Shown here piece by piece: positions 3,966 to 56,483 of a DNA stretch of 64,000 bases. Where the stretch lies: positions 54,233,812-54,297,811 of the forward strand of contig CM049314.1 of the NCBI GenBank assembly GCA_026874595.1, written 5' to 3'. The stretch is from Sipunculus nudus (lineage: Eukaryota; Annelida; Sipuncula; Golfingiida; Sipunculidae). The notes beneath the pieces are model-generated. The model was not told the DNA's origin. It did no database searches and worked only from the letters and a program-made list of their open reading frames with translations. The translations under genes were made by a program, and so were the position numbers. Position 1 is the stretch's first letter. Each line of letters starts with the position of its first letter.

Positions 3966-4552
3966 CGGGGCCCTTATATGTTTATACATGTATTAAGACA
4001 TAAAGACGCGTAAACGGCTAGATAAACGGCTTGTCAGGGGGGAATACAGAATGTCATAAGGGTGGAGGCTCAAAACCCTGGGCACAATACTTTCGCATGC
4101 TTTAATATGTATGGGGAGGAACGGCATGAGCCGCATGAGCATGATATTTCAAGTCACATTACACTTTACACATGGATGGAGCACGAATCAACATTGACAT
4201 TCGTGATTCGTGTATTTGAACATACCCGGAACACTATCATAGCCCCCGGGGCCTTGAGCTTTATATTACGGAATGTTGTTATAATCTTAAATTGACTGTA
4301 CAGCTAGCTACGCATGTGCAGGGATGCTCTCCACTCTGTACGATCAGTGTCTTCAGGATTTTATTCAAAGGAGGAACTAGTGACCCACATCTGTTAGAGC
4401 GACTGTTGTTAACAGTGCTGGTATTACTTTAACTGTGGTCTACTAGCTATCGGAACCTACGGGCGTGGTACAGTTATCAGTTTTATCATATTACAAGGAG
4501 ACCCAGCGTGCTTTCTTTTTAGTCTACATGAGTTATATTCGGTGTATGCGTT

Positions 4553-5354
4553 ATGTATTTTGTTAATAACATCCGTATAGGCACGGGACACGGTTGTGTT
4601 TTAAAATTTGTTATTATAATTTTCTGCTTTAACCTGCAAATTAGTGGGTCGTCTATAACTGTAAATGGCATCGAGTCAAATAGCACGGAGAGCTCACAGG
4701 AAGACCCGGGGCCCGTTACCGCCATCACAGAAACCACCACTCATTCTCTGAACAAGTCTGTTCATACGGACCTGTCAAAAAAGGCCATTTTAACCGGGGC
4801 CATTGATCTAGTCATTCTCCTGGACATTTCTCAGAGCTTGGACGGAACATATAACACGACACTCAAAGAATGGTTGAAGACCTTTTTTAAACGATACGTC
4901 GTCATGCGGGAAAGTGACACCAGGGTCAGCCTCATAACATTCTATGAGAAAACAAATATCATATTCGAGGGAACAAAATCAAACATAGATGTATGCTCCA
5001 TCGTAAGACGATTAGACAACCTGCAGAAACCAGACCACAATAACGGATTTGGACTGAGGGGAGCTTTAGAAGAGGCAGAAGTTGTTTTCAAAAGGAGTGT
5101 CAGAAGAACTGAGGCAGAAAAGATTTTATTCTTCATTTCTGATGGAGATAAATTTGATGAAGTCGGCCCAGACCACTTGCAAAGGACAGTGACTTTTTCT
5201 CGTGAATTAAAAACCAAAAATATATCTATTTTTGGAATAGGTCAAAAGGGTTTCACGCTGAATGAAACAGCCATCAAGTTGTTCGTCAGTGAACCGGAGG
5301 ATGAATTTTACTCCGTACCAGGAGCGATCGGTGACATCCTTGAGATTATTCCGG
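4553..5354 (+). CDS. Gene A coding exon 1: signal peptide and VWA domain
   Basis: This exon encodes residues 1-267 plus the first base of codon 268. The start ATG at 4553 is followed by a hydrophobic stretch (VLKFVIIIFCF) typical of a signal peptide. A Ser/Thr-rich spacer with several N-glycosylation sequons follows. The VWA core begins at IDLVILLDISQS, which carries an intact DxSxS MIDAS motif. Later VWA landmarks are VSLITF, ALEEAE, ILFFISDGD and ISIFGIG. The Thr usually found before the ALEEA-type helix is not evident (GLRGALEEAE), so metal coordination may be altered. The donor GTAAGT is at 5355. Unspliced translation would stop 12 codons later. The whole VWA sits in one exon, as in gene B. 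Confidence 0.85.
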
Positions 5355-5543
5355 GTAAGTGTTATGTTAACAATGAAAATCACGGTTACTGAATAATTAC
5401 TGAATAAGTAAAAAACGCATGCGTGAATGTCCTGTTTCAGCAGAGGCGTGTAATTATTTACTCGATTGTAGAGGAAAGATCCTTGTACTAGAAAATCAAA
5501 AAAGAAAAGAAAAAATATTCTGTTGAGGCAAATGATTGGATAC

Positions 5544-9960: not shown

Positions 9961-10428
9961 TCTGGGAAAAGCAAAAGAATATATAACGATTGATCATGTT
10001 GTCCTGTGATAATGTGACCGTCCATGGTTTCACCGGGTCTGATTAGGGTGCTATGTGTTTGTGCGGTCAACAGGAAACTCAGAAGAAGCTGTGTAGCTAT
10101 CCCAGAATACCTATACCTATTTTTCTTATATATCTATATTAATAAAGAGAAACAAGACGGAATATGTCCTAAGCAGAATACATATTTCATCATACGCACA
10201 TATATTGATTAATACAATGTGAACATATCAAATAATGGTTGAATCCTGGAAATTATGTTTGATAAATGTAGTTTTAATCATAGTTTTGCAGGACATGTTG
10301 CAGAACATGTCGCTGCGTGTATGGACTGTTCATGTTGAGCGACATGTCGAAGAACATTCGTGCGTTACACAATGAGTGTATTTGATTCACATCGTGTAGA
10401 CCACGTGACGGTTTTTCTTTTTTTATAG

Positions 10429-10554
10429 ACTCCGGCACGGATGACGTCAGAGCCCTGGATGAGGCGTGTAATAACAGCTGTCCGGGGCGATGTCGGTGTG
10501 ACGTCAGCGAGCAGGAAGTAGAATGTGACGATGACGACATCACCAGAAAACCAG
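10429..10554 (+). CDS. Gene A coding exon 2: short acidic Cys-rich module
   Basis: This 126-bp phase 1-1 exon encodes 42 residues. The acceptor follows a pyrimidine-rich tract ending TTTATAG, and the donor is GTAATT at 10555. The peptide has five cysteines in the pattern EAC-NNSC-PGRCRC...EC followed by an acidic DDDD run. It resembles a reduced EGF-like or knottin-type spacer but is too short to assign to a family. The frame continues exactly from exon 1 and into exon 3. The evidence is splice-site quality, phase and the Cys pattern. It was not in any long open frame, so it is easy to miss. Confidence 0.75.
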
Positions 10555-11676
10555 GTAATTATGAGCTCAACTCAGCTCAGATGAGAGAAGATAAAATACG
10601 ATATGATTTTCTTCCATTTCAAGGAATGTATGGGCGACTCGCAGTTTACATGCGATATTGCATGTGAAATGATATCATAACGGTACATTTGTTATAAAAT
10701 AAATTTGTACACAGACAAATGACATAAGTAAATAATAATTAGTAATACATAAATAGAATAAAATAAAAAAAATAGCACAGTACGCAGGCATGTATTCTCA
10801 TCTGGCATAAAACTTGCAGCTCTAAGTGTAAAGACCTGAATTCCGAACGGATAATAACTAAGGAATAAGTTCTTCTTTTTTTCGTGGGGACCTATATTCA
10901 CCAAACTATCATTTAAAAAACTGCAATGGCCAACAAAAGGAGAATTAACCATATTTATATTCTTATCTGTGATTTGCTGATTGCTGCATTTGTTGTCTAT
11001 CGTTTTAAGATTACAATTTTAACAAAATTTGGATTACATTTTAATTTTTAAAAATTGAAATGTGTAAATCAGGGTCAAAATTAACACAAAGTCAGCTGTT
11101 TCCGATTTCCGATGATTGATGATTGGTTGAACATTATGCGCAGACGTTAATTTTCTTTGTCAACAATAATTGTTACTACCAACAAAATAAAGCTTTTGGT
11201 CACATTTTATATTCAGTATTTGTGATATGTAAATTAGGGCCGCCATTGATATAAATTGTTCTTGTTGTCTCTTATCTCAAGAACTATCCATGGTTACTGG
11301 TCCAACATTATGACTGAGATATAGACTGAGGTTTCCATGATCAAAGATAAATATTAGATCAAATAGTCAAGGGTCTGGAGTACATTGTTATTTTTAACAT
11401 GCAAATTTGTAATGCCAAATCTTTTTTCATGGATATTGCAAGTACATTTAATTTTTTAACTAGTTCAACTGGGTGAAGCAAACATGTAAACCCGCCAATA
11501 TGTAATATTTCTCTACAAGAAAGCTGGATAAAATATATATGTGTCGACCATTTTCATATCGCATGTCAGTTTAGAATCCTTTCATGCCCAGTCTGCTCCT
11601 TATACAAGTGATGTTACCATATTCTAAGTCAACAGTCATCATCTTAAGGCTAGTAAGTGAAAATAACTTTTTATTA
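10555..11676. other. Gene A intron 2, 5' part, nothing recognised
   Basis: AT-rich intron sequence. I see no exon, RNA gene or clear repeat here. The same holds for 11833-12737 apart from a short (TA)n near 12548. Confidence 0.5.
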
Positions 11677-20212: not shown

Positions 20213-20532
20213 ATATTTCATTTTCAATATATGAATATTATTTTCTGAATAGCAAAGGGTAGGATTACATTGACCGTCCCACCTTACTATAAGGTGGGTG
20301 GACATGTGCACCCATCCCCCCCCCCCCCCTTATATAAACGCCCCTGAACCAAGAGGGTCATTTCAAGTTTGAATAAAAGCAATGTTACACCCTCCTGTTC
20401 CGCTTTTTCTGTGTTTGATCATGCCCTTGCCTACCCACACATATTTACAGAAGTGACGTTTCTTATCTTGCTCTTATTAATTCAGGCGTAGAAATAATTT
20501 CATTTATTTCTGATCATCTTCACATCTTTCAG

Positions 20533-20668
20533 AAGATCCTGACTCTCCTTCACAAGGGGGCGTCACCGTCTGGATGATAGTCACTTTCGTTCTTGCCGGT
20601 GTGGTTGTCTTGGCAACAGGAATCCTGTGTGGCTGTCTGGCCTGCTACTGCGGTAATAAGAGAAACAG
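20533..20668 (+). CDS. Gene A coding exon 3: transmembrane segment
   Basis: This 136-bp exon enters in phase 1 and leaves in phase 2. It follows a CATCTTTCAG acceptor and ends at the donor GTACAA. It encodes a short acidic/Ser-Pro linker, then about 26 hydrophobic residues starting VTVWMIVTFVLAGVVVL, then CGCLACYC and the basic GNKRNR. This is a type I membrane anchor with a positive-inside stop-transfer. The four closely spaced cysteines at the inner face are candidate palmitoylation sites (inference). The 1-to-2 phase pattern is the same as the transmembrane exon of gene B at 52306-52567. Confidence 0.82.
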
Positions 20669-20871
20669 GTACAAATAAATGTTATATTTATTAACTATTG
20701 ACCAAAATATTTTTTTTATAAATTACACTATTTGATTTATTTTCAAACCTATCATTTAATGGGTAATTAGTTTCATTGTTTATGTTCAGTCAGACCGGTA
20801 TAGGTATATAACAAATACCCCTTTCACCCGGCAAATAATGAACGGTTTCAAACTCACAAAATTTCACAGTT

Positions 20872-23599: not shown

Positions 23600-23705
23600 A
23601 TCATCACTTCGCAAACACGTTCAAACCTTTATAATTATATAATTGTGATATTCTCGTTCATGTATTAAAACATAACAATAATGAACTGAAAACTGATATT
23701 TGTAG

Positions 23706-24537
23706 AAAACCTAAGAAGATGTCTGAGTTGAATGGTGGATGTAACAGCCTGCACTGGGCAGGTCCGGAATGGGCAGACACAATCCCTCCAGGGGTGGCGC
23801 CACCTCCGCCAAGCCAGTCAGAGAACAGTAATAGTTACATAGACCCGGTCTCTATACCAAGTCCAAGATACGACCACGAACCTACAGAAGGCCGCCGGTA
23901 TCTGGAGCTCCAGAATCCGGACCAGTCCAATTTTTATGAAAATGAGGGACGGGCACAAATCAACGGCAGACCGGATGGCGGTCTTACAGCACCAGATGTC
24001 GTGCCAATCTCAAGTGTTTTATCCCTGGGAAGTAGTGCAAATGCGGGGGCGTATGAAAACTTAGAAAGTTATACAAGAAGAAATGAAAGTAAAAAAAGTA
24101 GAAGCTATGAGAATGCTTCATTTATTGAGCGATTAAAGCGGCGGGGGCACATTGTTAATATATTCCGTACTTCTGTGAATGAAAACGGATGTAACGCAGA
24201 ACAACCAACGGCTCAAGCTGCGCCACCGAACCAGCGACAAGCAAGGTCAACAACGCCTGACACGACCCGGGGTGCGGCGACATCTCGTCAGCAATCCGCT
24301 GCTTCTCGTGATGAACGCCGGGCCACGAAAAGCCGTCAGAAACGTGGAGGGGGAAGAGACACCCGAGAGAAACAGTATGACAGAAAGTATGAGAACGAGT
24401 CCGTGATACAAAGACTAAAACGCCGTAGTCAAGGCGGAGGTCTTTTCCGAAGCAGATCAAGGCGAGACAACGGCGTGGATCAGTCTGCCCCTCCTCCTGT
24501 CTCTGACATCAGGAAAATGTTTGATCAATCCGCATGA
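23706..24537 (+). CDS. Gene A coding exon 4: cytoplasmic tail with four YEN motifs
   Basis: This terminal exon encodes residues 355-631 and has a TTTGTAG acceptor. The junction codon AG|A gives Arg and the frame then runs open to TGA at 24535-24537. The tail is Ser/Arg/Pro-rich and polar, with no globular domain I recognise. It contains PPGVAPPPP near its start. Four YEN tripeptides lie at about residues 432, 471, 489 and 583. Two are part of a longer repeat of the form YEN-x-S-x-I-x-RLKRR. pYxN is the known preference of Grb2-type SH2 domains, so phosphotyrosine signalling is a reasonable inference. An ATG at 23719 within the exon is not taken as a start, because splicing continues the frame upstream. 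Confidence 0.82.
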
Positions 24538-46945: not shown

Positions 46946-47594
46946 ATGGCGTCCCCGGGGCTACAGTTGTCCTTAGCTACAATATTATTCTTCACGTGCA
47001 ACCAGGTTCGTGGTCAGGGACTTCTGTATGACTTCACTCGGTGGACGTACAACAAAAGCGTCGATGTAGGCTACCTCGTTCTGAGGTCGGATCAAAGTAA
47101 AGCTAGTCAGTTCTACCTGGAAACTAAAAAGATCGTTTATTGGCTGACTAAAGTTCATATGAATATTCATCCAGAGTTCGCACGAGTTTCCATAGTAACG
47201 TTTGCAAAGTCTTCCGAGATTTTAATAGATTCGTCTTCCCGGGCTCTTTCCAAATGTCAGTTACTTGATATTATAGAAAATGATCTAGTGTTCAACAGGG
47301 ATGCTAGCGATGGACACGATCTCACAGGAGGATTAGAAAAAATCCAAGGTATATTTAACAAAGGAGTAGCAGCTAAGAAAATATTATTTATATTCACAAA
47401 TGGGTATCACAATGACTCTCACCACGTCGTGCTGAGAGAAATACATCAGATTGCCGATGTGTATGTGGTCAGACTGAAACCGGAGTATCAGCAGGAGAAG
47501 GCGAAAGCTCTGGCGACTCATCCAAATTACTATGCTACAGCTGAAGAGTGGAGGAACTACATATATATCACATCACAGCGTGGCTTGTACAAAG
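46946..47594 (+). CDS. Gene B coding exon 1: signal peptide and degenerate VWA domain
   Basis: The ATG sits in a strong initiation context (GTTGCCATGG). It lies 11 bases after a CCAG acceptor, so an untranslated upstream exon is likely. The signal peptide is followed by VRGQG. The VWA-like fold is read from VDVGYLVLRSDQS, ARVSIVTFA, DLTGGLEKIQ, AKKILFIFTNG and ADVYVVRL, in the canonical order. The MIDAS DxSxS position is altered (the sequence reads LRSDQSKAS), while the loop-2 Thr of DLTGG is kept. This is the reverse of gene A. The donor is GTAAGC at 47595, phase 1. Length and single-exon layout match the VWA exon of gene A. Metal-dependent ligand binding is therefore doubtful. Confidence 0.82.
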
Positions 47595-48632
47595 GTAAGC
47601 TATATAAACTAAACTAGCTCTCGTGAAGATTCATATTTTTCAAGATATTGTTAACTCCTCATAGAATATTGCCAGATTATCTTAACAAAGTATATATTTA
47701 GCGTGGTCTTCAAAACAACATTTTAATGGCAAACAAAGTTTAAAATTGTTGATGTACTGAGAATTCTGGACATCCATCAGATGAGTTTCTGATATCAAGA
47801 GGGGATATATACATATACATTAAATTTAAAATATGTACATGATTTGTGGTAATGGTATGTTTCATGGTTGTCAACTGTTGTTGCCATGTTATGAATTGGC
47901 AAAAGTTGACACTCATTCAAACAAGAAACATACTAAAGTTATCCTAAGAATAAATGATACATTATTCAAAAGCCCGTCCCAAATTAAAAATGTGGTCATT
48001 CTTTCAAGACGTACTAAATTAGTTTACTTCACTCAGTGACATATATGCAGTAAGACAAACGTCCGCATCGACATCCGCGATTTTCTTTTGTTAAACTCTT
48101 TCTTGATTCTAGGTGCTCAGCTAATACATATATTGGAATCCATGAAATATTGGTAGGGAATGGTTACTTAATCATATTCGATGATTGAAAGACAAAAACG
48201 ACCGTTGATTAATCAATAATTGATTGTGTACCTTATTTAATGCCAAAGTGTATGCCATGTAGAATTTTACTTGAAATATTGACCTAGTTAATTAAGGTAA
48301 TTACCGGGTTGTTGATACTCATTCGTCGCACACTGTTCAGCTTTAATGTTTTCGCTATTTTGTGCCCGGCTCTCACATATCTCTGACATAATTAGAATTT
48401 TTTTATCTGTATTATATGGCTTATTTATATGTGCATACATAGTCGGTTTATAAAGGATTAGGCAAAAATGCAAATGATTAAATCGATTATGAAAAAGCGA
48501 CCAATCATTGATATAATCGTCCAATTGGTAAACCACAAGTGATTATACTCCTGGTACTCGGACAAAGACCGGCATGCAAGGAGGACAACACAACCTCCGA
48601 CCGACCTTACCTACTGCGGTGATATTTTCCAG

Positions 48633-48770
48633 AGGACCCGAGCTGGTTCCCGGAGACCACGTGTCCAGCATCATGTGTCAGTAACGCCGGCTGTTTCTGT
48701 GACGGAGTGACGGGCGCCAAGTCGTGTCTGTGTCTTCCTGGATTTACAGACGTCAACGGGCAATGTACAG
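48633..48770 (+). CDS. Gene B coding exon 2: Cys-rich EGF-like module
   Basis: This 138-bp phase 1-1 exon runs between TATTTTCCAG and GTAAAT. It encodes EDPSWFPETTC... with a run of eight cysteines ending CLCLPGFTDVNGQC. That ending has the CxCxxGF signature of an EGF-like module. It is the first ectodomain repeat after the VWA and probably a spacer or ligand-contact module. The frame is consistent with both neighbours. Confidence 0.8.
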
Positions 48771-49005
48771 GTAAATATATAATATCATATACCGTGTGGC
48801 CCCCCCAAAAAACGCACCGAATTTCATATCTTTATAACTTTACAACCATTGAATGTAATTTCATAAAATTCTATCTGCAACAGAGCATGTTTTTTTATTA
48901 GAGATGAGGGAATTTCAGATTCAAGACTCAGGAAAGAAACGTTGAAAATAGTCTGATGAAAAGATGAATACCAAATTCCGAAATTGCGAATTTTGATGTA
49001 AGATT

Positions 49006-49158
49006 TCTAATTGGTCTGATGCACTAACCCTTTAAATCAGGGTTATAAAATTTGCAGCATTTAAGCATAACATCATGTTCTATATGCAGATAAAGTTTTA
49101 TGAAAAGAGTTGTTGTGATTCAAGGTCTAAAGATGACTGCGACATGTTTGGTCACGAG

Positions 49159-49207
<49 letters not shown>

Positions 49208-49601
49208 AATATATTTATGTGTGTGTGTGTTTCACTCTGTATAGACAAATATTAAAAATTGTTATCCTTAAAGCAAACTGCAAATTCCTGTGTTGTTAAA
49301 TAAATAGAAGTCATGACATGTAAATAATTAAATATAATTTATTATATCACTGATCCTGGGGTATAAAATTCAAAAGATTGCAGCAACCAGTGCAATCATA
49401 TTCACATCTGATGTTGTATTACTCATTGCAAATGGGGATATGGTCAGAATTTCTAATTGGTCTGATGCACTAACCCTTTAAATCAGGGTTATAAAATTTG
49501 CAGCATTTAAGCATAACATCATGTTCTATATGCAGATAAAGTTTTATGAAAAGAGTTGTTGTGATTCAAGGTCTAAAGATGACTGCGACATGTTTGGTCA
49601 C

Positions 49602-49651
<50 letters not shown>

Positions 49652-49894
49652 AATATATTTATGTGTGTGTGTGTGTTTCACTCTGTATAGACAAATATTA
49701 AAAATTGTTATCCTTAAAGCAAACTGCAAATTCCTGTGTTGTTAAATAAATAGAAGTCATGACATGTAAATAATTAAATATAATTTATTATATCACTGAT
49801 CCTGAGGTATAAAATTCAAAAGATTGCAGCAACCAGTGCAATCATATTCACATCTGATGTTGTATTACTCATTGCAAATGGGGATATGGTCAGA
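49006..49894. repeat. Recent 446-bp tandem duplication in gene B intron 2
   Basis: Copy 1 begins TTTCTAATTGGTCTGATGCA at about 49006 and copy 2 with the same words at about 49450. Both run through a (TA)n, a (GT)n and end GGGATATGGTCAGAA. Differences are nearly confined to microsatellite lengths and one G/A change (CCTGGGG/CCTGAGG). Confidence 0.93.
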
Positions 49895-50011
49895 AGGGTG
49901 TCACAGGAGAGGGCGAAACCAGAATTTGTTGAAACATTAAGCAGATATAAAGTTTATTTACCCAAATACTCTGGTCAGTGAGAGCACGGTGTCCTGTACA
50001 ATTACGTGTCA

Positions 50012-50645
50012 GCATTTTCTGTTATGTCTCATAATGAAAAATCTTATGGTACCAATAATTTATGTTATATCTTAACATGAAATGTCTTTTCATACAATTA
50101 TTTTCTGTTAAACATCTGGTAGTGTTCAAAAAGTCTTTTAATACCATTATTTTCTTTTATATATCTTGTAATGAGAAGTCTTATAATAACATTAATTTCT
50201 GTTATATCATATGATGATTAATCTTATAATTTCATTTATTTTTCATTACATATATCTTGCAATGAAAGTCTCATAATACCATTATTTTGTCATATCTTGT
50301 CATGAGAAGCCTTATAATTCCATTATTTTCTGTTCTATCTGGTAATGAAAAGTCCAGTGACAACATTATTTTTTGTTATATCTTTTAAATGAATAGTCGT
50401 CTAAAACTGTTATTTTCTATTGAGAATGTGACAGTCTTTTCAGTATTAGTCTGTTGTGTCAGTTTTTTTTAGTATTAGTCTGTTGCGTCAATATTTTCAG
50501 TATTTTTCTTTTGTGTTCGTATTTTCAGTATTAGTCTGTTGTGACAGCATTTTCAAGGTTAGTCTGTTGTGTCAGTATTTTCAGTATTAGTCTGTTGTGA
50601 CAGCATTTTCAGTATTAGTCGGTTATGTCGATATTTTCGGTATGT
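50012..50645. repeat. Two diverged minisatellites before gene B exon 3
   Basis: 50012-50420 repeats a roughly 50-bp unit around ATTATTTTCTGTTATATCTTG and AATGAnAAGTCTTATAATA. 50424-50645 repeats a 28-bp unit AGTATTAGTCTGTTGTGTCA-GTATTTTC about 8 times. The array ends about 60 bp before the exon 3 acceptor. Confidence 0.8.
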
Positions 50646-50703
50646 CTCACATACCAAGATCTGTTTTTAAATCACAAGAGTGTGACAATATATTGTGTTA
50701 CAG

Positions 50704-50844
50704 CTTGTCCCGATAAGACTTACAAGAGCCAGCCTGGGGAGTTTTCCTGTGCACGCTGCCCGTACACCAGCTGGTCATTACCTAACCGCACGAAATGTGA
50801 ATGTCCCAAGATCGACCCACTAAGGATGGCAGAGCTCTGCCAGG
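50704..50844 (+). CDS. Gene B coding exon 3: Cys-rich module (GCC2/GCC3 or TNFR-like)
   Basis: This 141-bp phase 1-1 exon has a TGTTACAG acceptor and GTAAAA donor. The peptide begins ACPDKTYKSQPGEFSC and continues CARCPYTSW...CEC. The spacing resembles the CxxGxY...G...CxxCPxG pattern of GCC2/GCC3-type ephrin-receptor-like modules. That family name is tentative. One N-glycosylation sequon (NRT) is present. It continues the ectodomain stalk. Confidence 0.8.
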
Positions 50845-51049
50845 GTAAAAATTATTTATACATTTTACGTCATTTTAAATAAAATAAGATTCTAAATTGT
50901 TTGAAGAGCGTCATCTCAGAAAGTGAAGTTTAGCTATGCTAAGTATGCCATAAAAATAAAAGTTCGTGTACGTGAGATAAAAATATAATATATATGTACA
51001 TACTTTAAATTCCTTGGGTTGGCCCTCCACATCCCTATGCCCTATAATG

Positions 51050-51051
<2 letters not shown>

Positions 51052-51086
<35 letters not shown>
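51052..51086. repeat. (TA)n microsatellite
   Basis: About 16 TA units in gene B intron 3. Confidence 0.9.
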
Positions 51087-51092
<6 letters not shown>

Positions 51093-51407
51093 CATGGTAA
51101 TCTTTCAATCAATTATGGGACCATCTAATAATTAGCAATTAAATAATTAATATACAATTATAAACAGTGCATTGTTGAGGCTTCTCTCTGCAGAAAGTAT
51201 AAATAATTGTAACTTTAAAATAAAAGAATATATTAATTCCGCTTTATGAAAATGAGATTACGATAGTATACGTTCTTTTGACAACAACGAAAGGCTTACA
51301 CAGTAGAAATTACACACCGCATGACTAATAAAATCCGATTCACGATAAAATAATAACAGTCATACGATTACTGAGTGGATGTAAATAAAGGACTTTTTAC
51401 CTGCCAG

Positions 51408-51722
51408 GTCAATGCGACAGTCGAGATTGTCCAAGGAACAAAACGTGTACATACAGTGAAAACAACAACCCTGAATGCGTGTGTAAGCCAGGACGTATCG
51501 GAAGCGACTGTGACCGTGTGGCCAACCACTGTCATACAAACATATGTCGAAACTCCAGCCCATGTGGGAACACCCCGGGCGGGTACTACTGTTGGTGCGC
51601 GTGGAGTCACGTGGGCGCTTACTGTGAACGACAGTCGGACGATTGTGGCCCTGACGCATGCGCACCCGATGAGGCGTGCAGCATTGTGAATGAAAGCCTG
51701 AAGTGCGTCCTCAAACCGATCG
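51408..51722 (+). CDS. Gene B coding exon 4: EGF-like repeats
   Basis: This 315-bp phase 1-1 exon encodes about 105 residues with 17 cysteines. Two or three EGF-like units are visible. The first ends CVCKPGRIGSDC. The second contains NICRNSSPCGNTPGGYYC and ends WSHVGAYC. A third, incomplete unit is DDCGPDACAPDEAC. NTPGGYYC resembles the N-x-x-G-x-Y/F-x-C stretch of EGF repeats. A calcium-binding consensus is not clear. It follows CTGCCAG, and the donor is GTAAAG. Antisense open frames across this exon are shadows. Confidence 0.83.
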
Positions 51723-52305
51723 GTAAAGGCCAAGTTGTGCTTTCTTTTTATATACATTATGTCCTAGCTACATCTATAATTATCAGCAACCATAGATTAC
51801 TCTGTGGACAAATTATTTGTTTTGATATTTTCGTTCTACTGTTGCAATCATTACATATTCTAAATTTAAAGTAAACCTTCAATACATTTTATACCAAATG
51901 AGACATTTGTCTGCATTTTCTAATAGTTTTTACGGGTCTATATATCAATCATCAATCACCATCCGAAATCACCTATGGCCAAAACGTTCGATCTTGTTCG
52001 CTCCTGGGTGATCCCTGGTGACATCATACATAATAATTAACCGTATTGCGTCTATTCATTTCCTTGATAAAGCTGTGACCACGTAGGAGTGATCGCTTTT
52101 GATGCCAGAAACATATAAGCAAGACCTCTATTCTAACCCTTTATGTAAGACATGTGGCTGGATCACATAACCGTCTGTGGCTTCAGACAATACCTTTACT
52201 TATTAATATTTTAAGTCTATGTTTAAACCCCTGTGTGGTGGTGATCGATGAACGTGACCTGTAGTGACGTCACACATTACCATAACCAATACTCCATGTA
52301 TTTAG

Positions 52306-52567
52306 TAGTTGGTGTTGGGGTGATCGTTGGAGCAGTGATCGGCGGCGTGGTCTTAGTTTGTCTTATCATCGTCATCATCATCCTCCTGGTCCGGAGGAAA
52401 AGAAGAAGAAGAACAACCCAAGGACAACAGCAGTTTTCATCTGTCAACGGAATCTCTGGCCTGCCACGGCAGACCCCGGACCCCGCGTTCATGAACGACA
52501 TGCGTGAGCATTCAGTGTGTACCGGAAGCTCGTTCATAGCCAAGTCGGACGTCACACAGCCACCCAA
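52306..52567 (+). CDS. Gene B coding exon 5: transmembrane helix and juxtamembrane region
   Basis: The exon opens directly with the membrane helix, VVGVGVIVGAVIGG then VVLVCLIIVIIILLV. The stop-transfer run RRKRRRR and a polar Gln/Ser-rich stretch follow. It enters in phase 1 and leaves in phase 2, like gene A's membrane exon. The acceptor (ATGTATTTAG) is weak in pyrimidines but is the only site found that keeps the frame. Upstream alternatives hit stops. The donor is CAA|GTACCC. Reading through the donor would add about 16 residues and stop. Confidence 0.75.
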
Positions 52568-53989
52568 GTACCCATATTTCATTAGATTAGAAACATATAT
52601 TTTGTCTGTTTAAAGTACTAGTTTCTAAATGACACTATTTTGTAGCCGTCTCCCTTTTTGGCAATTCTTCCTACCTTCTATCTACCTACAAGACCTTAAA
52701 GTCACATTCTGACTTTTTTCTAAGATCGCTCATTCTAAACAATTATTTGTCAAAATGGAAGAAACAGTTGGCTAAGCTGAAGCTGTCTTCCATGGACGCA
52801 CCCCGATCGGGAACCATGCAACCGCTATAGTACCATTTACCGAACTATTATCTATCTCCTATTCTTAGTGTTTTGATAAAAGACACTAGTCGTTTACAAC
52901 TTGCTAGAAAATGTTTTCACAGGTGAAAGAGCGGCTAGAATTTAAAACATTTTTGGATCAAGTGGGCGACACGAACCCCATTATAACTTCTTAAAGGTGA
53001 TGGTATCATAGGGTAACCTACTTGGCGTATTCGACTGGTTCTGTTTCGTGAAGTAAATTTAAGCTCTACTATACTTTGAAGTGACCAGTAAAGTGCTTCG
53101 CGGATAAGTACAATTCAACAGATCTTGCAATCTCACAGCGTTACAGGAACTTCTTAAAAGAAAGAGTATTACAAAAGCATAAAGGTTCTATTAAGCCGTC
53201 AAAATATACACTATGTGTAATAACAAGATGTCATGTTTGAACAAGATATCATTTAATATAGCATACCTCAAACATATAAGTGGTAAATTCTCATGTTTGT
53301 GCCATTCTGAATTCCCAAGAAGTAAATAATTGTAACGATTAATTATAAATGGCCGGAAAATGTGTTGAGGTTTGCAAATACCGTGTTGTATGCTTAAGGT
53401 TATTACGCAAACTCAAATTGTTTCGATTTATGTAAGATTCACATGATAAAATAATATAGGATTTGGAATGAAAAAAAGCCGCTGGAACGCAGAAGTCATC
53501 TATGGCTTTATGTAGCAGTGGCTTTATAAGCGGCCCGGCAAAGTACAGACAAAAAGCGGCCGTACACTGTGCAAAAGGAAGAAGCATTTGCACACCAATG
53601 TTAATTTGATTCATTATTGCCTCTCCAAGGGGGTGTGTTTGTGTGTGTGTGTGTGTGTTCGTTCACAACATCCCTCACGCAATCATGAACGGAATCTCAT
53701 GAATTTTTCAGGGCATTTAGGGAATGGGCCAATGAAGAATCGATTAGATTGATTATGATGTGGATCCAGCACATGATCCGATTTCAGGAACGTCATTACA
53801 AATATTCACAAAATTTCAATATGCGGTCAATTATACACGTATGAACATTGGAATATGGACCGAAAGAATGAATGCAACCACGGTTTTGGGAGCTTCCCAC
53901 AATAAGAACTTCCAACAAGACGAAAGCTTGTGTTTCTTAGAATGCACATTTCCAGTTTTATTAATCTAAATATATAATACATATTTCAG

Positions 53990-54199
53990 AGTTCCGATGA
54001 AACCACCTCGAGCATATCCCGCGGCACCACCGTCACTGACACCTACACGGCCGGCGCCGCCGCCTCCGACACCACCTAAACCAGCGAAACCAACTCCCCC
54101 GAAGAAACCCCAAAAGCCACCGAGACACCGGCCGTTAGTGAATGGAGCCGCCGTACAGAGAATGGCGTCCCGTATCATCAGACCCGTGTCATCATACAA
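53990..54199 (+). CDS. Gene B coding exon 6: proline-rich cytoplasmic segment
   Basis: This 210-bp exon (acceptor ATATTTCAG, donor GTAAAC) starts and ends in phase 2. It encodes PMKPPRAYPAAPP, then a tract dense in PPPP, PTPPKP and PPKKPQKPP, ending in a basic RIIRPVSSYK. Such tracts are known ligands for profilin, SH3, WW and EVH1 domains. The same polypeptide ends in a profilin-like domain, so intramolecular or head-to-tail binding is possible (inference). An antisense frame over the same bases gives a Gly-rich shadow and was discarded. Confidence 0.82.
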
Positions 54200-54700
54200 G
54201 TAAACAACATAATACAACTCTAAAAATTCCTGACACACTCTGCCCGTAAAGGCCAAAAAAATCACGTTACAGCCGTGTTTCGTTAATTTTATTCTCTCAC
54301 AACTTAGTCACTTTCTTCATTGAAAGTTATTTACTACCTCCACAAAGGAAGTTATGTTTAACCCGCTCCTATGTGTTGTTTATTTGTTGTTTTAGAGTTG
54401 GCACGATTACGTAAAATGTATGGGATCGCTTTATTAAAAATTGTGTTATTTGACCATGTGCCTACTAAGACAAGGTAAAGGGGTCGGGTCCAACTCGTTT
54501 TTTTTTTGTATTTACGGAGGGGTGTCAGTTTATTTTATTCTGAGTATTACTTACAAGTACTCTACCTGTTTTTTCTAAACTTCCTCTTACTTATGTGAGC
54601 CCTATGATTTTCACCTGACAAACACACATGCACGGGGATGATCTAATACCCTCCGCAAAAATATTGTGCAGAATTCGTTGACAATCCTCTGTTTTCACAG

Positions 54701-54788
54701 GTCTGTGTCGGCTCCACAAGGTTTTGCTGAGCTTCGGAGGCCCATCAATGAGGAACGAGAGCGAATATACGAAAACTTGGCAAGTACA
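54701..54788 (+). CDS. Gene B coding exon 7: IYENL motif exon
   Basis: This short exon follows GTTTTCACAG and joins exon 6 through an AA|G Lys codon. It encodes SVSAPQGFAELRRP, then NEERERIYENLAST. The YENL motif echoes the four YEN sites of gene A. There are two possible 3' ends. Donor 54784 (GTACAG) looks better but leaves phase 1, and joined to exon 8 it would terminate after about 18 residues. Donor 54789 (GTTAAT) is weak but joins in frame to the profilin-like exon. I chose the latter because the product is then coherent and keeps an I-x-QR-like continuation similar to gene A's repeat. Confidence 0.65.
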
Positions 54789-55689
54789 GTTAATTTCACT
54801 GGTTCATTTTCTCTCACCTCAGCCGATTTGCCAGAGTTTATTGCTGTCACCTCGCCCTATCCGACATTTTCTTTCCTATTTTGTGAAAAGATTCAAAGAA
54901 TTTCTTAAGTTAATGAACATCAGATATCGGGATTTCGGAATAGGCTCATTTATTATGCTTTATAAATCTCAAGGGCATTTGATCATATAACTACCTACGT
55001 TTCCTTTACATATATATACTTATGCTCTACATGCCAGTCAACATATCCACTTCAAGCATCAAACTAGTTCAGGATCATGTATAATGTATGTTTTGATTAG
55101 AAAATATAATAAAACTATACATCAACACTCCTAAAGGTACTTTTACGTGTCGCGAGGAATTGTGATAAAAAATATGCTCCAGTTATTTGATAAAAAACCG
55201 TTCACTTGGCCCGTGGAATGTGGTATGAGACGCGCAGTAAAATAAAATTCTCAGTGGAGAACTGGATCCGTATACCGCGTGCGGTCTGACGACAACGGGA
55301 TCTGGGTAGTCTGTGATTTACAGTACAGGTGAAGTAAATCGCGCGGGTTCTGCGTCCGCAATCCACTACCGCATATCGCGCACCAAGTACACGTAAGTTT
55401 ATACTTACTAAAGCATGAGTTGCATAACTCATGCACCCCACCTATAGAGCGATAAAATACAGTACGTGCAGGCTTTATAGTGTCAGGTTTAGTGTCACAG
55501 CTCAAACGATGTGCTCACTGAATTGTTACTGCAAAGTTCATCACGTGATCTTACACCAGGCGAGAGACATGAGACGGTTGAGTTGTTTTATATGTACACA
55601 TGTATGTCCGTATTAATTTCCCGCAGACTGCAGGAAACGCATGCATCTTTAAGATGGATTCTTATAGGTTTACTCATTAGGAACAGAAC

Positions 55690-56020
55690 AAGTTGGTTTC
55701 TCAGGTACTTGCTGTCATAAATCGGTGCGTGCAGTTTTTTTTTTTTTTTTACATTTTAGGTATACAATAAAATATCTATATGATCAGGAGACACCATGAT
55801 AATAACAGAATGTTTTGCTAAAAAAAGTAAAAGTAAAACATAACGTAAGGAAATTGTAGCGACAAATTTATTTTTTTCATTTTCTTGAAAGAAAGCGGCT
55901 TTAGTTTATATCGGTAAATTTTTACTGAACTTTAAAATAAAATTCTTTGAGGTGGGGTAGGGGGGCGGTACAAAATTGATAATCGCGGAGCCTGAGAAAG
56001 CAACATTTTTTTTCCGGCTG
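55690..56020. mobile_element. Decayed MITE of the 1088 family (copy 3), next to profilin exon
   Basis: GTTGGTTTCTCAGGTACTTG at the left and GCCTGAGAAAGCAAC at the right are degenerate TIRs. The interior shares GATAATAACA, TTTGCTAAAAAAAGTAAAAG, TTTTCTTGAAAGAAA and GGGGGGCGGTAC with copy 1. It lies in gene B intron 7 and ends about 44 bp before the acceptor of exon 8. Confidence 0.7.
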
Positions 56021-56063
56021 GATATAAATATTTAGAGTGTCACATGTTGGCTTATGTTTTTAG

Positions 56064-56483
56064 ATACATCAACGAGGGATGAAGAGATGGAAGGAGTACG
56101 TGGAAGCACTTGTTGATCAGGGTCGGGTAGGGGACATTTACGTCTGTAAGCGCGATAACAGCAAGTACATCGCGTCAAGCAGCGACTTCAGGCTCGAGCC
56201 CGCCGCCGTCACCGATGTCTACAACGTCATCATGTCACGTGCTCGGGGCGTTACAGTTTACGTTACGCCACGTCATAAATACAACGTTCAAACCAATAAC
56301 GGCACGGTCATTACCGGGCGAGGGACTTACAACAGCCCTACAGGTCCTCAACAACAAGTGATGGTGTCCCAGATAACGAAGGATTACATCATACTAGCGA
56401 CAGCAGATGACGCCACGGACTCTGGTCAGTGTGAGGCGGAAGTGACGTTCCTGGGGGAGCACTTTGCTGCCATCGACATGTAG
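56064..56483 (+). CDS. Gene B coding exon 8: profilin-like domain and stop
   Basis: This 420-bp last exon follows TGTTTTTAG and ends with TAG. From the internal Met at 56079 it runs 134 residues, the full size of a profilin (about 125-140). Family landmarks in order are RWKEYVEAL (the W-x-x-Y pair that in profilins contacts polyproline), KYIASSSDF (usually WA-S-F, here Trp to Tyr), a central GVTVYVTPRHKY, GTVITGRG, TKDYIILATADD, then GQCEAEV and LGEHFAAID. The His of GEHF fits the C-terminal polyproline-site His, and the terminal aromatic is missing. Profilins bind actin monomers and polyproline. A membrane-tethered version would act at the cell cortex (inference). Assignment is by motif pattern, without alignment. 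Confidence 0.78.
   Translation: MHQRGMKRWKEYVEALVDQGRVGDIYVCKRDNSKYIASSSDFRLEPAAVTDVYNVIMSRARGVTVYVTPRHKYNVQTNNGTVITGRGTYNSPTGPQQQVMVSQITKDYIILATADDATDSGQCEAEVTFLGEHFAAIDM

Follow-up and report, generated by a model that had tools for sequence, protein, structure and literature searches.

A predicted transmembrane VWA receptor with a C-terminal profilin domain and a family of similar genes in the genome of Sipunculus nudus

The window analysed here is a 64 000-nucleotide stretch of DNA from Sipunculus nudus (C9:54233812-54297811 of the 1.43-Gb host genome); positions within it are counted from its first letter. On the forward strand, at 46946-56483, it carries a predicted gene for a single-pass membrane protein that combines an extracellular VWA domain with a profilin domain at the C-terminus. 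An earlier sequence-only reading had described this gene as one phase-consistent chain of exons. Rebuilding the chain from the DNA reproduced its coordinates and phases; with the joins proposed there we obtained eight exons, 2205 bases and 734 residues with no internal stops, and with a revised last join (54779/56064, see below) a protein of 737 residues, also with no internal stops.

All eight exons lie on the plus strand. Exon 1 (46946..47594, donor AAG/GTAAGC, phase 1; here and below a slash in a sequence marks the exon boundary) encodes a signal peptide, judged by eye and with a hydropathy of its own below 1.6, followed by the VWA domain, which in the assembled protein matched PF00092 above the Pfam cut-off (E 4.4e-7, 30.7 bits against 23.8, residues 55-204), as had been expected. 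The metal site of this domain looks degenerate: an alignment has L-R-S-D-Q in the window protein at the place of D-R-S-K-S in the paralogue L007, a departure from the metal-site motif DxSxS. Exon 2 (48633..48770) encodes a Cys-rich module (CPASC..CFCDG..CLC) that is also present in paralogues, exon 3 (50704..50844) another Cys-rich module with a counterpart in L032, and exon 4 (51408..51722) EGF-like modules. The cysteine pattern of these modules is indeed EGF-like, while none of the Pfam EGF models reached its cut-off on exon 4 (the best was EGF_3, 17.7 bits against 28.5), so that the earlier description of Cys-rich/EGF modules holds for the pattern and not for a Pfam match. Exon 5 (52306..52567, end in phase 2) encodes the membrane helix, the RRKRRRR stop-transfer sequence and the start of the cytoplasmic tail. 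The hydropathy profile of the protein has one peak above 1.6 (residues 425-443, height 3.64), with the basic run after it, in agreement with the helix and stop-transfer first read there. The proline-rich stretch, also recognized earlier, is encoded by exon 6 (53990..54199), between helix and profilin; exon 7 (54701..54779) ends on the tyrosine motif RIYENL, and exon 8 (56064..56483) holds an IHQRG linker, the profilin domain (56079-56480) and the stop codon. Separately, an intron of this gene contains a segment of ∼440 bases with a TA repeat, present by eye as a tandem pair at about 49003-49445 and 49449-49895.

The last join is where our chain differs from the one proposed earlier. There, exon 7 ended at 54783 and exon 8 started at 56077 (phase 1); this join has a poor acceptor (−4.1), a total score of −5.3 and the sixth place among the ten in-frame joins listed, and we rejected it as probably wrong. 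Scores were computed with untrained splice-site weights that follow a general consensus, with GC donors penalized by 4. The best score among the same ten joins, 3.2 even after the penalty, belongs to 54779/56064, which pairs a proposed GC donor (TTG/GCAAGT, phase 0) with the acceptor tttttag/ATACAT (phase 0); the second-choice donor is a GT at 54788. The join 54779/56064 is also the homologous one, with the donor at the same position as in the paralogue L030 (YENL/ in the window, YENV/GTCAGT in L030). It is thus probable, judging from the DNA and its paralogue, that the profilin exon starts at 56064 in phase 0 and is joined to the GC donor at 54779.

The C-terminal domain had been called profilin-like from short landmarks. 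A Pfam search matched it to Profilin (PF00235) above the cut-off of 25 bits, both within the assembled protein (E 2.6e-6, 28 bits, residues 603-730) and as the domain alone (E 8.4e-8, 32.8 bits, covering positions 2-123 of the 127 in the model). The same model found 12 matches in the host genome, partial ones on C2 and C6 included, and none in the 14 control genomes of the same search. With the window profilin domain as the query, at least nine matches with E ≤ 1 were found in the host genome: the window itself, L030, L031, L032, L003, L004, L005, L006 and L007. This number is a lower bound, as the best candidates were scored. Three further loci, L001, L002 and L008, look like free profilins.

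The surroundings of these nine profilin exons carry the argument for a fusion. A VWA exon lies upstream on the same strand of eight of the nine, at a distance of 3 to 26 kb. In the opposite direction, the VWA and Cys-rich part of the window protein gave 13 matches at seven loci, six of which have one of the nine profilin exons downstream on the same strand. We could read the membrane-helix exon at eight of the nine loci (the window, L030, L032, L003, L004, L005, L006 and L007), and the penultimate exon likewise at eight; at L031 neither was found in the partial upstream stretch, and a narrow pattern search for its tyrosine exon gave zero candidates. The tyrosine motif beside the profilin domain is RIYENL in the window and YENV in L030; VIYGTV, VIYGNP and IMYDNT occur among the paralogues. 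Two observations stand apart from this comparison. The seventh of the loci found with the VWA query is a VWA and Cys-rich pair at C7:45861575-45862470 (minus strand) for which no profilin exon of its own was seen, and in L032 the open frame continues past the profilin domain, where it encodes a repetitive tail, rich in Asn and Gln, that includes a YEN motif.

The phases of the exons agree as well as their order. The acceptor of the profilin exon is in phase 0 and lies five codons ahead of a Met in eight of the nine loci (the window and seven paralogues); in L006 it lies six codons ahead, and Leu stands in place of the Met. On the other side of the junction, all seven paralogues read have a penultimate exon with its end in phase 0 (determined by script for L004 and L007, by inspection for L003, L005, L006, L030 and L032), and the membrane exon ends in phase 2 also in L004, L007 and, by eye, L006. 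Complete assembly gave five-exon open genes with no stops for L007 (593 aa) and L004 (582 aa), with phases 1, 1, 2, 0; both proteins contain VWA, membrane helix and Profilin, the two domains above their Pfam cut-offs. The scripted assembly of L032 broke at one join.

These data bear on whether exon 8 could be a small profilin gene of its own, with a start at Met 56079, an intron in its 5′ untranslated region and a chance position behind the receptor gene. That Met is found where free profilins begin, and L001, one of the free profilins, may have an acceptor 16 bases ahead of its ATG. However, the same neighbourhood at eight of nine loci, the phase 0 on both sides of the junction in 7/7 paralogues read, the missing Met at the start of the L006 profilin and the grouping of receptor profilins in one branch of the tree (see below) all speak against a separate gene; we consider it highly improbable and rejected it on recurrence and phase. 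Since the same genome contains the layout several times, chance is a very unlikely origin for it.

Another possibility is that alternative splicing produces short-tailed and profilin-tailed forms, the profilin being present in some transcripts only. Weak donors are found at exon 5 (CAA/GTACCC, −1.6), where read-through reaches a stop after about 14 codons, and at exon 7, for both of its GT donors (−1.2 and −2.4). The donors of L004 and L007, on the other hand, score from 1.7 to 7.0, and we regard such a division of transcripts as rather unlikely.

For comparison with known structures we built a receptor profile from eight aligned domains (L003 was excluded for its stop). Against PDB it retrieved 19 sequences at E ≤ 0.01 (best 9.8e-7), 18 named profilin and one the pollen allergen Art v 4.01, itself a profilin; at E ≤ 10 there were 29 sequences, five of them peroxiredoxins at E from 0.98 to 2. 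A profile-profile comparison with four canonical profilins gave a probability of 98.6 over 123 columns. In an unrooted tree of 13 domains, where L008 has a very long branch, the eight receptor profilins are held together by a branch with support 99/98, present in 98% of bootstrap trees, a grouping that fits with the fusion having arisen once. Codon differences between the window and L030 profilins number 52, 43 and 81 of 134 at first, second and third positions, respectively, and those between L004 and L005 number 41, 32 and 86. The excess at third positions is what purifying selection produces; dS (synonymous divergence) between receptor profilins is saturated or not computable, and cross-clade pairs, which had been compared without gaps, were left out. 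The main support for the fusion comes from the host genome itself, where at least nine such genes are predicted.

What the profilin domain may do at the membrane can be approached through the residues known from free profilins. PMC2694148 lists Trp3, Tyr6, Trp31, Tyr133, Phe139 and Asn9 as polyproline contacts of profilin 2a, and Phe59, Arg74, Arg88, Lys90, His119, Lys125 and Tyr128 as actin contacts of profilin 1. Among the 126 gapless columns of the eight receptor profilins, five hold an aromatic residue or His in all eight sequences, and four of the five are the positions of Trp3, Tyr6, Trp31 and residue 133. All eight receptor profilins thus keep four of the five positions of the polyproline pocket, the Trp31 column having been set by the D-x-x-x-[WY] spacing in a second alignment (the first was one column off). 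The position of His119, by contrast with profilin 1, holds Asp in seven and Gly in one of the eight, and His in none. Compared by eye and unaligned with mammalian profilin, the window domain seems to have no match for Arg74, Lys90, Lys125 and Tyr128, and perhaps keeps an Arg at the position of Arg88. The receptor profilins also have a longer loop ahead of the last strands.

These observations have to be set against the mechanism first proposed, a true profilin at the membrane that binds actin monomers and delivers them, by way of the proline tract, to filament ends that grow beneath an adhesion site. Homology over the whole profilin domain, a proline tract within the same tail and a pocket kept at 4/5 positions would all fit this mechanism; the changes at His119, the apparently unmatched actin contacts and the longer loop do not. 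Acanthamoeba and yeast profilins are likewise without His119, so that these changes make actin binding by the receptor profilins less likely without excluding it. On balance this mechanism seems unlikely, and direct loading of actin monomers by the receptor profilin is possible but less supported. Since the pocket is mostly kept while His119 is changed, a role as polyproline-binding adaptor seems to us more probable than one as carrier of actin monomers, and we favour, from residue conservation, an adaptor anchored in the membrane.

We assign a probability of roughly 0.6 to the following reading: the window gene encodes a single-pass receptor with a C-terminal profilin, one of a family of at least nine genes, that works as a membrane-tethered polyproline-binding adaptor. 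From the N-terminus the predicted protein would consist of a signal peptide, a degenerate VWA domain, Cys-rich and EGF-like modules, the helix, the basic stop-transfer sequence, a proline-rich tail, a tyrosine motif and a profilin encoded by one phase-0 exon, a layout that would require the exons to be spliced into one message and would place the VWA side at the cell surface. In the idle state the profilin domain may be bound to the proline tract of its own receptor, in cis, or to that of another receptor in a cluster. Once a ligand binds, receptors cluster or the adjoining YENL-type tyrosine is phosphorylated, the profilin domain would engage actin regulators rich in proline (formins, Ena/VASP, WAVE) where the contact is made; a role of the tyrosine motif as a phosphorylation switch is plausible. 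The sequence-only reading had proposed a receptor coupling adhesion directly to actin assembly. Its first half, a transmembrane VWA/Cys-rich protein with a terminal profilin, is well supported; direct coupling to actin is less certain, given the changed His119 in 8/8, and that idea is better supported in the form of a coupling that uses actin regulators rich in proline, or the proline tract of the receptor itself.

Several results weigh against this interpretation. The last join of the window gene, predicted from DNA, requires a donor that is either a GC, which is rare, or a weak GT. At L005 a VWA exon is absent from the upstream stretch examined, though membrane and proline/tyrosine exons are present; the penultimate exon of L032 has no YEN-type tyrosine motif; and the L003 profilin exon is interrupted by a single in-frame TGA close to its end, whereas L004, nearly a copy of it, is open (L003 may be a recent duplicate that is decaying). 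The domains of L030, L031 and L032, three of the seven paralogue domains, score 24.9, 17.5 and 23.9 bits, below the PF00235 cut-off of 25; a phmmer search of PDB with the window domain alone gave zero sequences at E ≤ 1, and single-sequence AlphaFold2 prediction of the domain yielded an unusable model (pLDDT 38.8). Within the pocket, the fifth position, 139, is aromatic in only two of the eight receptor profilins, and Asn9 is not kept.

The window contains a second putative receptor-like gene upstream, also on the plus strand (4532-5389, 10386-10664, 20514-20675 and 23635-24534). Its VWA, Cys-rich and membrane-helix exons follow in the same order as in the profilin-tailed gene, and the VWA exon scored 59.4 bits with Pfam. 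In place of a profilin, the final frame, its putative tail, has 300 residues with a PPPP run and four YEN motifs (YENE, YENL, YENA, YENE), and no profilin match was found in it. Two long open frames of 210 and 257 aa on the minus strand (14641-13238) look like a retroelement remnant.

Among known proteins the PF00235 profilins (profilin 1/2, Acanthamoeba and yeast profilins) are matched by the receptor profilins over nearly the full length, with the Trp3, Tyr6, Trp31-type and residue-133 pocket positions kept; they are free in the cytosol, whereas here the domain is the predicted C-terminus of a membrane protein, with a longer loop and without the His119 of profilin 1. Profilin generally counts as a small protein that diffuses in the cell, and the usual view is that receptors are linked to actin via recruited adaptors; integrin tails recruit such adaptors and are not known to carry an actin-regulator domain themselves. 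We know of no receptor described so far that ends in a profilin, and a literature search found none in the titles and abstract openings listed, with most subscription papers outside its reach. With integrins and other VWA/EGF adhesion receptors the window protein shares an extracellular VWA domain, a membrane helix and a presumed link to actin (integrin domains are listed in PMC2651865), and it differs in its degenerate VWA metal site. The receptor profilins may resemble mammalian profilin 4, a profilin paralogue without the known actin-binding residues, for which PMC2694148 reports that it does not bind actin; it is, however, a free protein that according to the same paper has also lost the polyproline pocket, most of which the receptor profilins keep. 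A review (PMC8387879) describes profilin isoforms 4 and 2b as being without actin and polyproline binding.

More tentatively, the tethered profilin, the proline tract and the tyrosine motif might together act as a self-contained switch, through which ligand binding or clustering would lead to the local assembly of actin with no need for free profilin to be recruited; such proteins would be a previously undescribed class of receptors that arose once, then expanded and diversified. A receptor carrying its own profilin would fix the stoichiometry of the polyproline/actin machinery with the membrane receptor, and each member of the family would show, as an experiment of nature, which activities of profilin are important at the membrane.

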